DNA from: Candidatus Thiopontia autotrophica
GTDB lineage: Bacteria; Pseudomonadota; Gammaproteobacteria; GCF-002020875
DNA length: 64,000 nucleotides
Direction of reading: 5' to 3'
NCBI GenBank assembly: GCA_014384675.1
Contig: JACNFK010000024.1
Location: forward strand, 81,018-145,017
The notes beneath the pieces were generated by a model. The model was not told the DNA's origin and searched no databases. It saw only the letters and a program-made list of their open reading frames with translations. The translations under genes were made by a program, and so were the position numbers. Numbering within the stretch: position 1 is the first letter of the stretch; every line of letters starts with the position of its first letter. Below are positions 28,835 through 64,000 of the stretch, one piece after another.

Positions 28835-30778
28835 TTATCCGGCTTGGGCCTCACGAGCACGCTTTGCTATCCGTCTGTAACGTGGATCAGTTGCTGCCAA
28901 AATCCCGCCAAGAGACATCACCATAACCCCTAGCCATATCCACTGGATAAATGGCTTGTAGTAGACACGCATGGCCCAGGCATTACTGTTTTTGATCGGT
29001 TCACCCATTGCAACATAGAGATCACGGAAAAGCCCCTCATCAATAGAGGCCTCAGTCATAGGCATGCTCTGTACGGTATAGAATCGTTTTTCAGGATGGA
29101 GCACGGCAACCTCCTGCTGGTTTTCATCATATACGTACACTAGTCCCTCTGTCGTGGTGTAGTTTGGACCTTGACGCTCCACCATTCCATCCAGATGGAA
29201 TGTATAGCCTCCAGCCTCAACCTTGCTGCCTGGTTCCATCCGTACATCCTTCTCAATACTGAATGCAGTAGTGAAACCAACTCCGATGATGAACAGTCCA
29301 AGTCCTGCATGAGCGACCAGCATTGCTAAATGGCTTCTGGATATTTTCTTGTTTCGGGATGACTTGTTCCAGAAATCCTGAAGCATGGTGATGATTATCC
29401 ATACCGCAATAGCTGAACTTATACTCAACTGAATGGATGTTGTGTCGAATATCAGGAAGGGGAGAGAGAGGCCAATTATCAGCGACACAAGTAGCGCCGC
29501 CTTCTGCTCACCAATAACACGACCTGGCTTGTCAGCTTTCCAGCGAATAACCGCGCTCAATCCAATCAGGAATGACATCGGTAACATGATGGGGACAAAT
29601 ACGGCATCAAAGTATGGAGGGCCAACTGAGATCTTGCCCATCTCTAGTGTATCAAGAATAAGAGGGTAGAGAGTTCCAATAAGTACCGTCATGGTGGCAA
29701 CCACCAGCAGGACATTGTTTACCAGTAGCAGAGTCTCTCTGGAGAACGTCTCAAATTTACCTCCACCACGAATCATTGGCGCGCGCCATGCATAGAGAGC
29801 CAGTGACCCTCCAATAACGATCGCCAAGAAGAAGAGAATAAATACACCTCGTGACGGGTCAGAAGCAAAGGCGTGAACCGATACCAGAACACCGGAACGT
29901 ACCAGGAAGGTTCCCAGCAGACTTAGGGAGAAGGTGAAAATTGCCAACAGAACAGTCCATACTTTGAAGGCGCCACGTTTTTCAGTCACAGCCAGAGAGT
30001 GCAGCAGTGCTGTTCCCATAAGCCATGGCATGAACGATGCGTTCTCTACCGGATCCCAGAACCACCATCCACCCCAGCCAAGCTCATAGTAGGCCCACCA
30101 GCTGCCGAGTCCAATTCCCAGAGTCAGGAAGACCCACGCAATTGCTGTCCAGGGGCGAGACCAGCGTGCCCATGTAGCATCCAGATGTCCACCAATCAGT
30201 GCAGCAATGACAAATGCAAAAGGCACTGCGAAGCCAACATATCCCATATAGAGGAGTGGAGGATGGATAATCAGCCCCGGATCCTGTAGCAGCGGATTCA
30301 GATCACGACCATCAGCAGCAGCAGGGATAAGGCGGTCAAATGGGTTTGAGGTGAAGAGAAGAAATAGTAGGAAACCGATACTAACCAGCCCCATAACTGC
30401 AAGCGCACGAGATGTCAGGGTAAATGGAAGACTCTTGCTAAACCAGGTAACTGCAGCACCCCACAGACTCATAAGAAAGGCCCAAAGCAGCAGAGAGCCC
30501 TCATGGCCACCCCAGATCGCGCTCACCTTGTAGATCATGGGAAGTTGAGAATTTGAGTTTGTGGCTATATAGCGGACAGAGAAGTCGTCTTGTGCAAAGC
30601 CGATCCCAAGCAGAATTATTGCCAACAACAGAAAGAGGAACTGTCCTTGGGCGGCAGGACGTGCCAGAGCCATCCAGTTTGAGATCCCTTTATGTGCTCC
30701 AACCAGAGGGATAATCCCCTGAATGATAGCAATTGAGAGGGCAATCATCAGGGCAAAGTTGCCTAGCTCAGGAATCAT
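28835..30778 (-). CDS. ccmF: Cytochrome c heme lyase CcmF
   Basis: Large membrane subunit that attaches heme to apocytochrome c in system I, 647 residues. The WWD heme-handling motif [19 protein letters not shown] is near residue 235, with periplasmic histidines in the surrounding loops, and about 14 membrane segments. It overlaps ccmE by four bases. The partner genes ccmG and ccmH do not follow. Confidence 0.96.
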
Positions 30779-31248
30779 TGTTTACTCTCCAGCATTCTTC
30801 TCTTCCCCTCTTCATGGCCAGCCTCTAGCGCCTCGGCAACCTCTGGTGGCATGTAGTTCTCATCATGCTTGGCCAAGACCTCTTCAGCCACAAAGATTCC
30901 ATCATTGCCAAGCTTTCCAAGTGCCACAATGCCCTGTCCCTCACGGAAGAGATCAGGAAGGATTCCGGTATAGGCAACAGTCACAGTGTCTGCTTCATCA
31001 GTAACATCAAAATTAACAGTTAATCCACCATCACTGTTTTCCGTATCTCTAATCAGGCTGCCATCTGCAACCAATCCACCGAGACGGAAGGTGTGCCCTT
31101 GTGGGGCCTCGCCGGCAACTACCTGAGTTGGGCTGTAGAAGAGGTTGATGTTCTCGTTGAGGGCTTTCATCATCAGGGTTGCTGCACCAGCAACAGTCGC
31201 GATGATTAGCAGAATCAGAAGGAGTCTTTTTTTTCTTTTAGGTGTCAT
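30775..31248 (-). CDS. ccmE: Heme chaperone CcmE
   Basis: Periplasmic heme chaperone of system I, 157 residues. One N-terminal membrane anchor (about 9-29), an OB-fold domain ([12 protein letters not shown] to [14 protein letters not shown]) and the heme-attaching loop [12 protein letters not shown] with H128 and Y132. Transcribed between the ccmC fusion and ccmF. The last 110 bp reappear, damaged, at the right edge of the window. Confidence 0.96.
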
Positions 31249-31273: not shown

Positions 31274-32491
31274 TTAATTATTCTCTTGCCTGATCCGTCT
31301 GGCAATGCTCAGTTTAGCCTCACGAGTTGTCCTTAGTGCTCCAAGCAGGTTAAGCAGAAAGACCACAAAGGCAATTGAATATCCTGCTATTACGTAACTG
31401 GAGTGGTCACGGATATTAAGTGCAGCGATTGAGTTTGCGTTGACGCTTGCTGCCCCGGAATCGGATTGAAGTTTTCCGGTTACGTGAGCTCCCCAGTGGG
31501 TGCGTAGCTGTTTCGGTAGTTTGCCTGCAAAGTTGACCATAATTTTCTCTGCATCATCAGACACCAGGATTTGGTGTTGGTTCCCATCCGACTGGATACT
31601 CTCAACATTTCCTCTAAACTCTATCTGTTCGGTTGGAGAGCCTGCAACCAGCTCTGTTGGGGAGAGAATATCTATCCTGTCTGTTGTGGCTGCATGATAT
31701 GCGACATATCCAATTGCAATCACAGGAATCAGCAGATGCAGTGGACGTACTTTTATATCTGGCAGGTCACGAACCCAGCTGCCACGAGAATCTTGCTGGA
31801 GCGAAAGCCCGCGTGCACGAATAAGAGTGACTACAGCAAAAAAGAGAGATAGTGCAACCAGCATCAGTAGCATGGAGCTGAGCATGGTCATCTCCATCGA
31901 TGGCTTGGCGATTTTTGAGACAGTCGCCCCTTGATGGAGGGTATTCCACCATTCGACCGAAAAGTGGATGATGGGTATATTGACGACACCAACCAGGGCA
32001 AGTACCGAGCTGGAGCGTGCGGCATTCTGCCGGTCATCCATTGCGGCACGCAGTGCCATGTAGCCGAAGTATAGAAATAGCAGAATCAGCTCCGAGGTCA
32101 GTCGTGCATCCCATTGCCACCAGGTTCCCCAGGTTGGTTTCCCCCAGATTGACCCAGTAAGAAGTGCAAGAAAGGTAAATGCGGCGCCGATGGGGGCGCT
32201 GGCCGCAGCAATGGTGTCAGCCAACTTGATTCTCCAGATCAGGAAGATCGCCCCCGAGGTTGCCATGATCATGTAGATCATCATCGAGTTGGATGCTGCT
32301 GGAACATGTAGATATATAAGTCTGTAGCTCTCTCCCTGTTCAGAGTGGGTTGGAGCAACTGCAAAGCCGATATAGAGGCCAACAATCATTAATGCAAAGG
32401 AGAGCCCGGCCAGCCACGGAAGCAGCTTTCCAGACATTGAATAGAAGTGTTTCGGTGAGGAGAAACGGTAGATAAAATTAGGTAATTTCAT
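31274..32491 (-). CDS. ccmC: CcmC fused to a CcmE-like OB domain and a CcmD-like tail
   Basis: 405 residues, far longer than CcmC alone (about 245). Residues 1-235 are CcmC: six membrane segments, the WWD motif WGTWWQWDARLTS (121-133), and heme-ligand histidines H62 (YLHVPAA) and H186 (TLHQGAT). A seventh membrane segment (about 250-268) leads to a domain at 272-360 that resembles the CcmE OB fold (ILSPTELVAGSPTE, FAGKLPKQLR, HVTGKL). It lacks the CcmE H-x3-Y heme loop. Residues 362-402 (HSSYVIAGYSIAFVVFLLNL, then a basic tail) look like CcmD. Topology would put the OB part in the periplasm. No separate ccmD is present. Confidence 0.88.
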   Translation of the reverse strand: MKLPNFIYRFSSPKHFYSMSGKLLPWLAGLSFALMIVGLYIGFAVAPTHSEQGESYRLIYLHVPAASNSMMIYMIMATSGAIFLIWRIKLADTIAAASAPIGAAFTFLALLTGSIWGKPTWGTWWQWDARLTSELILLFLYFGYMALRAAMDDRQNAARSSSVLALVGVVNIPIIHFSVEWWNTLHQGATVSKIAKPSMEMTMLSSMLLMLVALSLFFAVVTLIRARGLSLQQDSRGSWVRDLPDIKVRPLHLLIPVIAIGYVAYHAATTDRIDILSPTELVAGSPTEQIEFRGNVESIQSDGNQHQILVSDDAEKIMVNFAGKLPKQLRTHWGAHVTGKLQSDSGAASVNANSIAALNIRDHSSYVIAGYSIAFVVFLLNLLGALRTTREAKLSIARRIRQENN

Positions 32492-32505: not shown

Positions 32506-33192
32506 TCAGCTAATACTTATTCGGGTGGAGGCTGCGGTTGCTATGGGGGATAGTGCCAGAGTAAATAGCAGGAGTGCTCCAAGGATATAGATGTAACCAT
32601 CCACTGGTAGTCCGGCAGCAGACTCATTGACGGCCATTGAGCCAAAAATGAGTACAGGAATATATAGGGGAAGAATGAGTAGCGAGAGCAACACTCCACC
32701 ACGTTTTAGTCCGACAGTAAGCCCCATTCCAATGGCGCCTACCAGGCTGAGAATAGGTGTCCCCAGTGCCAGGGTTATGACCAGAGTAACCATCGCATCA
32801 GTTGGAAGGTAGAGAAGAACCCCAAGGAGAGGAGCAACAAAAATAAGTGGCAGCCCGGTTATTAACCAGTGAGCAATAATCTTGGCCAGCACCAGAACCG
32901 AGAGTGGGTGGTGGCTCAGAGTAATCTGCTCCAGAGAGCCATCCTCAAAATCAGAGCGAAACATCCCGTCCAGCGAGAGCATGGCGGAGAGCAGTGCTGC
33001 GACCCAGATGATTCCCGGGGCGATGGTCTCCAGTACCGAGGGAGAGGGGCCAACCCCGAGAGGGAACAGGGTTACCACAATGACAAAGAAAAGCAGAGGG
33101 TTGGCTATCTCGCCGCGGTGGCGAAAGGCAAGAGTCAGGTCTCGGATCAGAACCTGTAAAAATGCATTTGATAGAGAGCCGGAAGGGGTCAT
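32506..33192 (-). CDS. ccmB: Heme exporter membrane subunit CcmB
   Basis: Membrane component of the CcmAB ABC transporter that drives release of holo-CcmE, 228 residues with six membrane segments. Typical CcmB segments are RDLTLAFRHRGEIANPLLFF and MLSLDGMFRSDFEDGSLEQ. Overlaps ccmA by four bases and precedes the ccmC fusion by 14 bp. Confidence 0.95.
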   Translation of the reverse strand: MTPSGSLSNAFLQVLIRDLTLAFRHRGEIANPLLFFVIVVTLFPLGVGPSPSVLETIAPGIIWVAALLSAMLSLDGMFRSDFEDGSLEQITLSHHPLSVLVLAKIIAHWLITGLPLIFVAPLLGVLLYLPTDAMVTLVITLALGTPILSLVGAIGMGLTVGLKRGGVLLSLLILPLYIPVLIFGSMAVNESAAGLPVDGYIYILGALLLFTLALSPIATAASTRISIS

Positions 33193-33899
33193 GCGGCGGT
33201 TGTCCAGAGGTTGTTGGCCTGTTGGTTGTCAGCATACATCTCGAGGTTGAGAGATTGATAATATTCGTTATCTGTTTTTAGTGGGTGGTGGGTGGTCAGC
33301 ACAATGATTCCTCCAGCCGCTACGTGCTCCTCGAATATTTTCTCGATCTCTGCAATTCCCTTGCGATCCAGTGCAGTAAATGGCTCATCCAGAATCCAGA
33401 CAACTGTTTCAGTTGCCAGCAGTCTGGCAAGCGCAACTCTGCGGTTTTGTCCGGCAGAGAGGTGACGGCAGGGGATATCCTCAAATCCGGCAAGCGAGAG
33501 CCGTGCCAGAATTTTGTACAGGTCACTATCGCTTTTTGGAGTAGATAGTGCCTGGGCAAAGTGGAGATTTTCCAGTGCAGTCAACTCACCCTTTATACCG
33601 TTATGGTGCCCAAGATAGGCAGCATCAGTGTAGTAGTCGGCACGCTCTTTGGTGATATTTTCACCTCTCCAGAGAATCTCTCCCTCACTTGGTAGCATGA
33701 CTCCACAGAGCAGACGCAGCAGGCTGGTTTTTCCGCATCCATTACGTCCTTCAATCTGCAGGATCTTTCCGGGTTTTATCTCGATATTGAGGTTGCTGAA
33801 CAGGACTCGATCCCCACGGATGCACTCAAGATCAACTGTCGCCAGACTGTTGTTCAAGTCATGCTTGCTGTTTCTCTTGTTCATGACATCCATTCCCAT
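33189..33899 (-). CDS. ccmA: Cytochrome c maturation ATPase CcmA
   Basis: ABC ATPase of system I, 236 residues from the chosen start. Walker A GRNGCGKTSLL, signature LSAGQNRRVALAR and Walker B WILDEPFTALD are clear. ATG 33899 is chosen because GAGGAGG lies about ten bases upstream; GTG codons at 33908 and 33926 are alternatives. First gene of the ccmA-B-C-E-F operon. Confidence 0.95.
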   Translation of the reverse strand: MGMDVMNKRNSKHDLNNSLATVDLECIRGDRVLFSNLNIEIKPGKILQIEGRNGCGKTSLLRLLCGVMLPSEGEILWRGENITKERADYYTDAAYLGHHNGIKGELTALENLHFAQALSTPKSDSDLYKILARLSLAGFEDIPCRHLSAGQNRRVALARLLATETVVWILDEPFTALDRKGIAEIEKIFEEHVAAGGIIVLTTHHPLKTDNEYYQSLNLEMYADNQQANNLWTTAA

Positions 33900-33975
33900 G
33901 TTCAGCACGCCTCCTCGTGCCTGCACTCCTCCCTGAATTGATGCAGGATTCTAGCACATTAGAGGGTAAAAAATA

Positions 33976-61832: not shown

Positions 61833-63863
61833 CTAATTTTCAAATGTCATCTCCAACTCTCTTAACTCTCTTCTCAGTGCTGCAGACCCCGGTACAGGAA
61901 AAGGAGCTGCCCGGTTAACTGCCTGTACAACCGACAAATCAAATGCCTCATTACCACTTCTGCTAACTACTGTGACCTTACCAACATGACCACCAGGAAC
62001 AAGGGTTACCTTTACTCGGCATGAACTATCTTTTGGCGCACTTTTTGGCCTATTCCAGACCCGCTCAATCTGCTGACGAATGGTTGCTCGCAATTGTGCC
62101 AGCTTCTGTGAGTCAGACTCTCTTCTGGAATTAGTGATTTGTTCACTCTCCAGATCAGCCTCCTCAAGCATCATCTCCTCTCGCAACATCTTCTGTATAC
62201 GCCTCTCTTTTGCCTTTTTCTCCACTGAGTCAATACCAAATCGATAGATGTTAGAAAGGTTGATTGCGGCCTCGGGATAACCGAGTTCAACCGATTTTTT
62301 GAGCAATGCAATAGCCTCATCAGGCGCCGTCTTCTCTTTAATCAGTCGCATTCCCTGTTGCATCAAGACAACCGCTTCATCCGGATAATTCTCTTGCTCC
62401 CACAGCCAATGAAGATACATTGCCAAAGCATCTTTTTCCCCTGCCTCCAATAGAGTATTCAGAAGCTCGAGTAGCTGATTTTCTTGGCGGCTGTCTGCGT
62501 GCCTCATTCCCGCCTTTACCTCAAGGTAACTATGCTTATCTTCACCAACAGTGGTCAACAAGTCATCACCATGACATTGAGAACAGTAAATCGCATATAA
62601 CTCTTGCCCCCTTATCAGCGCTTCACTTTGTAGCTGATAGGGGGTCATTTTATGAAGGCTGATCCAGTCCTCAATCGCTTGATCAACAATGTGCTGATGC
62701 AAATGCTCCATTTGGGATCTTTCCTCAATAGATGATGGGATGCCGACAAACTCAATATCGACCCATTCACCAAGATTGTCCCCATCACTAGCAACTGTTG
62801 TAAGCCACATCGACAATAGCGACATCGGCTTCTCGGGTTTAATGGAAATTACAATCTTGTCTGGCTCTCCAAACACCCACTGGATCGCCTGCGAGGCAAT
62901 ATCAATATTACTGAGCAATGCCTGTTCGATTTCAGCCTTGTTATTCCCCTTAACCTCTGTGATTTTTCCGGCCTCTTTCATTAAAGAGATCTCTTGCAAG
63001 ATAATGGCAGCTCGATCTCTGATCATTGCTCTATTCAGCCCCAGTTTCTCTTCAAGCAGTTGGAAGAGGCGCTGTATAACTCCTAGATCAGCAATCTCAT
63101 AGTTCACCTCATGAAGCGTAAGGCTCGCGACAATCGCACCCACAGCCTCATCATCATCGAGATACTCCAAATTATTCAAAATTGCGCGAAGTATTCTCTC
63201 CCCTCCAACCAGTGAACTCCCTTTTACTGAAAAAAAACCGGGAAGATCAAGCTGGTTTGATGTCTTACAGATATTGTTCTCACAACTGGTCTTCAAGGTG
63301 ATGTTTGCATGAACTTCATCAAGAGAGATCCCGGTCTTTTGCTGAATCTCTGCGACAACCACAGGGTTGAGATGCAGCTCAATATTGTGTATTTCGATAT
63401 CTTGCTCAATTAACTGAGAGTCACGAACGACAATCTCATCGATCTCTATCCATACCTCTCCGAGTTTCCCGGCGACCACGTCACGGATAACAGGAACCCC
63501 ATCCCTCTCATCCGCCACATAACTAACCATCGAACGAATTTCACGCTTCTCCTTGTCGCTGAGATCAATATACTGAAATGCCTCGTCGAACCATTGCTCA
63601 ACAAGCTCATTAGCGCGTTCAGTTGGTGTCGGCCCATAGAATGTCGGACGAGCAATCGTGGAGAGAATTTCCTTTTTGATCTCCGCAAACTCATCCTTCG
63701 TTAAGGCTCCTGCCTGATGAAGCTTATGGAGCAGTTGAATGTCTTCTAGTGCAGAGTGACCGCTTCTCTCGACAGCAGATGCGTCATCAAGAACAAGAAC
63801 AACAGCGAATACGATAGAGAAGATTCGTACAGTTATCGCCCAGCTTATGGACTTAAAAAACAT
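61833..63863 (-). CDS. Secreted mosaic protein: SHOCT-like, cytochrome c, Sel1-like and TolA/TonB C-terminal parts
   Basis: 676 residues from ATG 63863, which directly precedes a signal peptide (about residues 1-30, ending DDASA). Residues about 37-62 (LLHKLHQAGALTKDEFAEIK) look like a SHOCT domain. A class-I cytochrome c-like segment has the heme motif CSQCHGD (about 427-433) after GQELYAIY and ends AMYLHWL. A Sel1-like unit (PDEAIALLKKSVELGYPEAA) follows at about 513, then a charged helix and a TolA/TonB-type C-terminal domain (from IRQQIERVW, about 595, to the end). The region 70-400 is unrecognised. No family match for the whole. The open frame continues upstream into the ccmE remnant, but that part is unlikely to be translated as this protein. 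Confidence 0.78.
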   Translation of the reverse strand: MFFKSISWAITVRIFSIVFAVVLVLDDASAVERSGHSALEDIQLLHKLHQAGALTKDEFAEIKKEILSTIARPTFYGPTPTERANELVEQWFDEAFQYIDLSDKEKREIRSMVSYVADERDGVPVIRDVVAGKLGEVWIEIDEIVVRDSQLIEQDIEIHNIELHLNPVVVAEIQQKTGISLDEVHANITLKTSCENNICKTSNQLDLPGFFSVKGSSLVGGERILRAILNNLEYLDDDEAVGAIVASLTLHEVNYEIADLGVIQRLFQLLEEKLGLNRAMIRDRAAIILQEISLMKEAGKITEVKGNNKAEIEQALLSNIDIASQAIQWVFGEPDKIVISIKPEKPMSLLSMWLTTVASDGDNLGEWVDIEFVGIPSSIEERSQMEHLHQHIVDQAIEDWISLHKMTPYQLQSEALIRGQELYAIYCSQCHGDDLLTTVGEDKHSYLEVKAGMRHADSRQENQLLELLNTLLEAGEKDALAMYLHWLWEQENYPDEAVVLMQQGMRLIKEKTAPDEAIALLKKSVELGYPEAAINLSNIYRFGIDSVEKKAKERRIQKMLREEMMLEEADLESEQITNSRRESDSQKLAQLRATIRQQIERVWNRPKSAPKDSSCRVKVTLVPGGHVGKVTVVSRSGNEAFDLSVVQAVNRAAPFPVPGSAALRRELRELEMTFEN

Positions 63864-63916
63864 GTTCACTCGATTACTCTCCAGCATTCTTCTCTTACCC
63901 TCTTCATGGCCAGCCT

Positions 63917-64000
63917 CTAGCGCCTCGCAGCCTCTAGCGCCTCGGCAACCTCTGGTGGCATGTAGTTCTCATCATGCTTGGCCAAGACCTCTTCAGCCAC
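63917..64000 (-). pseudogene. Second ccmE copy, 3' end, frameshifted; continues beyond the window
   Basis: 63874-64000 repeats the ccmE 3' end (30782-30891) with one substitution and one extra 17-bp unit (CAGCCTCTAGCGCCTCG twice in tandem). The extra unit shifts the frame and gives a stop at 63917-63919, so the last residues of CcmE are replaced by a short tail. Only the last part is in the window; whether the rest is intact is unknown. The loss affects the C-terminal tail after the heme-binding loop, so the product might still work. Confidence 0.75.

Follow-up and report, generated by a model that had tools for sequence, protein, structure and literature searches.

In the window analysed here, a stretch of 64,000 nucleotides from Candidatus Thiopontia autotrophica, a single gene of cytochrome c assembly System I almost certainly encodes CcmC and CcmD in one chain, joined through a CcmE paralogue that consists of an anchor helix and an OB domain. 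The fusion is a rare new variant of System I, recovered from a small gammaproteobacterial group. The central domain has lost the heme-binding motif of CcmE, and a real CcmE is encoded next to the fusion. The reading that we favour, with a probability of roughly one half, is that the domain would act as a fixed, heme-dead CcmE surrogate on CcmCD, aiding the docking or the displacement of the real CcmE.

Locus and operon context

The fused frame opens with an ATG at 32491 and ends with a stop at 31274–31276, so that the bounds of 31274–32491 given in a preliminary description are correct, with the gene on the minus strand. Upstream lie ccmA and ccmB, while an ordinary ccmE and then ccmF follow downstream, and the fusion thus fills the ccmC–ccmD place in a System I operon (Table 1). 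The set ccmA, B, C, E, F and H is present, with ccmA assigned by position and an ABC_tran match and ccmH encoded elsewhere in the genome, away from the fusion locus.

Table 1. Features of the fused gene and its neighbours, in window positions
Feature	Positions	Strand	Remarks
Whole fused gene	31274..32491	-	CcmC, CcmE-like OB domain and CcmD; 405 aa
CcmC core	31763..32491	-	Residues 1–243; heme-ligand H62 and H186, WWD motif
CcmE-docking loop of CcmC	32336..32347	-	Residues 49–52 (HSEQ); D47-Y48-Q49-Q50 in E. coli
WWD loop	32108..32146	-	Residues 116–128 (WGKPTWGTWWQWD); Thr120 is the partner position of CcmD Tyr17
Added transmembrane helix	31685..31744	-	Residues 250–269; counterpart of the CcmE N-terminal anchor
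Periplasmic CcmE-like OB domain	31409..31678	-	Residues 272–361; without HxxxY
CcmD domain	31277..31411	-	Residues 361–405; single helix, basic cytoplasmic tail
H363 codon	31403..31405	-	Equivalent of CcmD Tyr17
Ordinary ccmE	30775..31248	-	HDENY present; every docking residue retained
ccmB	32506..33192	-	
ATP-binding ABC subunit	33189..33926	-	In ccmA position beside ccmB; Pfam ABC_tran
ccmF	28835..30778	-	

A 375-bp stretch of the ordinary ccmE (window 30819–31193) recurs with 100% identity near the contig end, from window 63617–64000 to about C24:145621. The repeated stretch carries no start and no membrane anchor, is in frame with a SHOCT-like open frame and has neighbouring segments that are repeated too; it probably reflects chimeric assembly or a duplication of very recent date. 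A candidate second ccmE at C24:144970–145275 was rejected as this identical partial copy, with no adjoining ccmC or ccmD.

Domain identities of the fused chain

Pfam matches along the window protein follow the order Cytochrom_C_asm (residues 16–186, E 1e-39), CcmE (276–345, E 0.003) and CcmD (363–403, E 0.011); in a scan of this protein by itself, the latter two fall under the curated cut-offs. At the level of the tail family, all eight of eight members match both the CcmE and the CcmD model (best E 2.7e-14 and 4.5e-9, respectively). Profile–profile comparison yields scores of 65.6 (P 9e-11) for the OB domain against CcmE and 58.6 (P 7e-13) for the tail against CcmD; the corresponding maxima in 60 column shuffles each are 20.4 and 17.9, and 50 CcmC-core windows compared with the CcmD profile reach at most 16.5. 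The Pfam order and these scores agree with the preliminary assignment of a CcmC core, a heme-loop-less CcmE-like OB domain and a CcmD tail.

The CcmC core scores 247 bits with the NCBIfam ccmC model (cut-off 186) and shows 51% identity with E. coli CcmC when aligned by Foldseek, and its WWD motif, H62 and H186 align with the conserved columns that mark a CcmC. By score, by WWD and by both heme-ligand histidines the core is intact, and heme transport and the loading of CcmE are its predicted activities. The full-length AlphaFold2 model (pLDDT 81.5, pTM 0.78) retrieves E. coli CcmC first and CcmE third in a Foldseek search.

A heme-dead CcmE paralogue within the chain

The central domain resembles CcmE in its N-terminal anchor, its OB fold and its conserved Gly/Pro positions, and also in sequence, where the similarity is weak but specific. 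Searching the PDB with a sequence profile returns two CcmE chains (E 4e-4 and 9e-4) plus one insignificant match. The AlphaFold2 model of the tail (mean pLDDT 79.7), built from six module sequences with no ordinary CcmE rows, comprises a helix, a short helix, five strands and a long helix. The prospect raised in the preliminary description, that structure prediction might yield no OB fold, is not borne out, since the five OB strands are predicted at residues 289–358. In a Foldseek search with this tail model, the CcmE chain 8ce8_E ranks fourth (E 1e-5) and has the highest identity among the matches listed, 22%. Generic OB matches from Foldseek, such as RPA and aminoacyl-tRNA synthetases, were set aside as reflecting the fold, the significant PDB sequence-profile matches being to CcmE only.

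Alignment bears out the earlier statement that the domain has no H-x3-Y: Asn359 stands where the heme-binding histidine would be, an asparagine occupies this position in all nine fused sequences, and the CcmD junction replaces the heme loop. Because the HxxxY loop is absent, the domain is a CcmE paralogue rather than a heme chaperone. The docking residues known from E. coli CcmE are lost as well, with R73, D101 and E105 all replaced and R104 retained in the alignment, so that the contacts through which CcmE usually docks are not available to the pseudo-CcmE. Within the OB domain, the turn corresponding to the docking strip of CcmE is among the most conserved stretches, with other residues in place and an invariant R-x-x-WGA motif.

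Matched changes on the CcmC docking surface

In E. coli, CcmC residues D47, Q50 and R55 hold CcmE through R73, D101 and E105, while Q49 together with CcmE R104 affects release (PMC6204919). In every complete fused chain D47 is replaced by His, Tyr48 by Ser and Q49 by Glu (E. coli numbering), and further changes occur at two residues below the heme-ligand H60 and at the x of WxWD. In window numbering, H49, S50, S67, N68 and Q126 are present in all complete fused chains and in 0 to 2% of 134 ordinary CcmCs, H49 and S50 being confined to fused chains; E51 is found in 7.5% of the same 134. The separate CcmE of the fusion genomes keeps all docking and heme sites unchanged. This altered chemistry on both sides of a known interface, conserved through the clade, suggests a new within-chain contact. 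The complete fused chains form one clade, and the matched CcmC changes may accordingly reflect chance inheritance rather than compensation.

The CcmD domain and its pairing with the WWD loop

The C-terminal part is homologous to CcmD along its single helix and basic tail, and from the domain layout and that tail it would run N-out/C-in. The MGG and YVW motifs of gammaproteobacterial CcmD are not kept, the fused tails having IRDH and YVI instead, and the CcmD model scores stay under the curated cut-off of 25.95 (15.7 bits for the window protein, 25.0 bits for L036).

H363 had been assigned to the CcmD part in the preliminary description, and it aligns without gaps at the place of E. coli CcmD Tyr17, a residue for which both coevolution with Met118 of the CcmC WWD loop and a position adjacent to it have been reported (PMC9616876). 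Among 114 ordinary loci, the residues at CcmC-120 (window numbering) and CcmD-17 combine as M-Y in 97, T-H in 9, T-Y in 4, T-R in 2, and M-S and M-H in 1 each, an association with Fisher P 7e-9 without correction for relatedness. Thr120 is present in every complete fused chain and His at CcmD-17 in 9/9 fused sequences. Since Thr120 and H363 follow the T-H pairing of free-standing CcmDs, the CcmD part most likely sits at CcmD's normal place. Covariation of Met-Tyr and Thr-His at CcmC 118 and CcmD 17 (E. coli numbering) occurs outside the fused clade, for example at L026, L042, L048 and L051. CcmD is required for the release of holo-CcmE (PMC6204919; PMC10457321), its exact role being called enigmatic (PMC6204919); the fused CcmD part is predicted to serve in this release.

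The pairing of Thr120 with H363 also bears on the idea that heme is bound non-covalently by H363 and Tyr366, two neighbouring residues where the OB domain ends, in place of the HxxxY loop. H363 is invariant and located where the CcmE heme loop would start, and in E. coli CcmD a Cys placed at position 17 becomes crosslinked to heme (PMC12077264). The Thr120 pairing, however, explains H363 as a CcmD residue, His also occurs in ordinary CcmDs without an OB domain, and a real CcmE is present, which together make such a heme relay very unlikely.

A separate ccmD, the absence of which had been proposed as a check on the fusion, was not found by a CcmD-model search of the genome: none is recognisable, and the matches consist of the fused tail and one 13.5-bit match only. 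The same search also gives matches in 14 of 14 control genomes, some of them without System I. The assembly is 98.6% complete, so the absence of ccmD elsewhere in the genome is likely, though short of certain. A ccmD hidden in the short gaps flanking the fused gene or elsewhere was also sought, and none was found.

Distribution, origin and constraint

The search for other proteins with this domain order recovered the same fused chain in nine genomes of two families, comprising all six genomes of the genus and three of five from the second family. One of these three, G345, had been considered as a stand-alone module, but its sequence is cut by the contig end. The remaining two genomes of the second family have ordinary ccmC and ccmD. 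A 399-genome sample of the phylum, the window's own genome included, contains no further full-length match at E 1e-9, the residual matches covering the CcmE part only. Other fusion candidates resolved into known arrangements: L064, L176 and further loci with long stop-to-stop frames are ordinary separate genes, and the apparent C–D fusions in G212, G089 and G138 are ordinary ccmD genes with MGGY within a long open frame. The CcmC tree unites the eight complete fused proteins in one clade (100/99), and closest to it stand CcmCs of Granulosicoccaceae, whose genomes have ordinary ccmD.

A distant gammaproteobacterium carries, at locus L092, a separate 160-aa pseudo-CcmE–CcmD gene between ccmC and ccmE (NCBIfam CcmE E 1.9e-14, CcmD E 0.002). 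The start of this module lies on the ccmC stop, so little change would be needed for fusion. The L092 CcmC falls in another part of the CcmC tree, is without the CcmC changes of the fused clade and keeps an ordinary docking strip; it has Met on the CcmC side of the CcmD-17 pair, with Tyr at the ungapped Tyr17 position, where the alignment is ambiguous. A search for relatives of the module matched the CcmE part only. On the OB tree, a single origin of the OB domain of L092 and those of the fused chains gives an AU p of 0.15, with long branches, and the unfused gene represents either an older stage or a second invention.

For L036 versus G250, the pair with unsaturated synonymous sites, dN/dS is about 0.06 in CcmC, 0.09 in the added helix, about 0.20 in the OB domain, 0.18 in the CcmD part and 0.05 in CcmE; in most other pairs dS is saturated or near-saturated. 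The OB part, which evolves about 4x faster than CcmE, is retained under purifying selection, though looser than CcmC and CcmE. That the fusion is an assembly artefact or a frame error is practically out of the question. Most of the assemblies are metagenomic, and the window's contig ends in a chimera-like stretch, yet nine genomes carry the same joins, one of these genomes shows them in 7 contigs, and synonymous differences are near saturation in most pairs compared; an artefact of a single assembly is thereby ruled out.

Proposed mechanism and competing explanations

From the cytoplasmic end of CcmC, the chain would pass through the added helix into the periplasm, form the OB domain there and return to the cytoplasm through the CcmD helix. 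The CcmD part would occupy its usual place, with H363 beside Thr120 of the WWD loop in the manner of E. coli Tyr17 and Met118. This topology and placement are, taken together, quite probable. The OB domain, fixed just before H363, would then be positioned above both the heme site and the loop of CcmC that docks CcmE, making contact through the new residues on both sides. There it could serve as a built-in surrogate that assists the docking of the real CcmE, and through competition for the same CcmC surface it could help holo-CcmE to leave after loading, the CcmE mimic just ahead of the CcmD part adding competition at the step where CcmD acts. The position over the heme site and the surrogate role are, jointly, a tentative proposal that we regard as somewhat doubtful. 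The suggestion of the preliminary description, that a CcmE domain may be tethered to the heme-loading site for docking or as a decoy, is plausible. A more specific form of the proposal, in which the heme-dead CcmE acts in cis as a displacer, driving or tuning the release of holo-CcmE through competition for the docking surface, with the L092 gene as an unfused form of the same device, is conceivable but on balance unlikely. Counted against the surrogate reading are the faster evolution of the OB domain, the L092 CcmC without the changes and the missing MGG and Trp of ordinary CcmDs; moreover, an OB domain that gripped the docking site too tightly would keep CcmE from loading.

The main rival to the surrogate reading ascribes no function to the OB domain itself: a duplicated CcmE anchor and domain would supply an extra membrane crossing, and the fusion would only fix the CcmC:CcmD ratio. 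One more helix is indeed required, with the CcmC C-terminus inside and the CcmD N-terminus outside, and both the looser constraint on the OB part and the loss of its heme site fit a spacer. A bare helix would suffice for this purpose, however, yet what purifying selection preserves is an entire OB domain whose docking turn carries a conserved motif, and in L092 the pseudo-CcmE and CcmD form a gene of their own, for which a spacer is unnecessary. We consider this explanation improbable, though a serious competitor.

The OB domain might alternatively cover the heme site between cycles, so that heme would neither leave nor react before apo-CcmE displaces the domain. Its position directly before the CcmD residue located at the WWD loop and the altered residues around the heme site would accord with such a gate, which sequence cannot separate from displacement of holo-CcmE; we judge it distinctly unlikely.

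Relation to known systems

Compared with CcmC and CcmD of E. coli CcmABCD (PDB 8ce1, 7f02), the fusion shares the CcmC core, the heme-ligand histidines, the WWD motif, the CcmD helix with its basic tail and the operon position, but it is one chain rather than two, with a CcmE-like domain between, lacks the MGG and Trp of CcmD and has a changed docking strip. Relative to the CcmE heme chaperone (PDB 8ce8 chain E, 1sr3), the pseudo-CcmE has the same N-terminal anchor, OB fold and Gly/Pro positions, and differs in lacking the HxxxY loop, in the replacement of R73, D101 and E105 and in being fused at both ends. Fusions are known in cytochrome c assembly, namely CcmH–CcmI in E. coli and CcsB–CcsA in Helicobacter (PMC3601427, PMC3884852). 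These likewise place partners of one complex in a single chain, but they join working partners, whereas here a heme-dead paralogue is added and the real partner remains.

A review of 2011 records no known variant of either CcmC or CcmD (PMC3601427), and the CcmD sizes with which a 2025 survey illustrates the range run from 37 to 100 aa (PMC12077264). No description of a CcmC–CcmE–CcmD or CcmE–CcmD protein was found in a full-text collection that covers a minority of the subscription journals. The fusion offers a natural single-chain CcmCD for structural studies, and its combination of a CcmE mimic with lineage-wide CcmC changes is a ready tool for the role of CcmD in release. Deletion or exchange of the OB domain could tell loading from release, and the fusion may help to show how a heme-loaded chaperone is released.

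A further counterpart is the L092 gene, which has the same order of a heme-loop-less CcmE followed by CcmD, the same RDH junction and the same place between ccmC and ccmE, and differs in being unfused to a CcmC that retains the ordinary docking strip. That CcmC (L092:1486–2223) has one extra residue inside the WxWD motif, reading WWEWTDAR against WWxWDAR.
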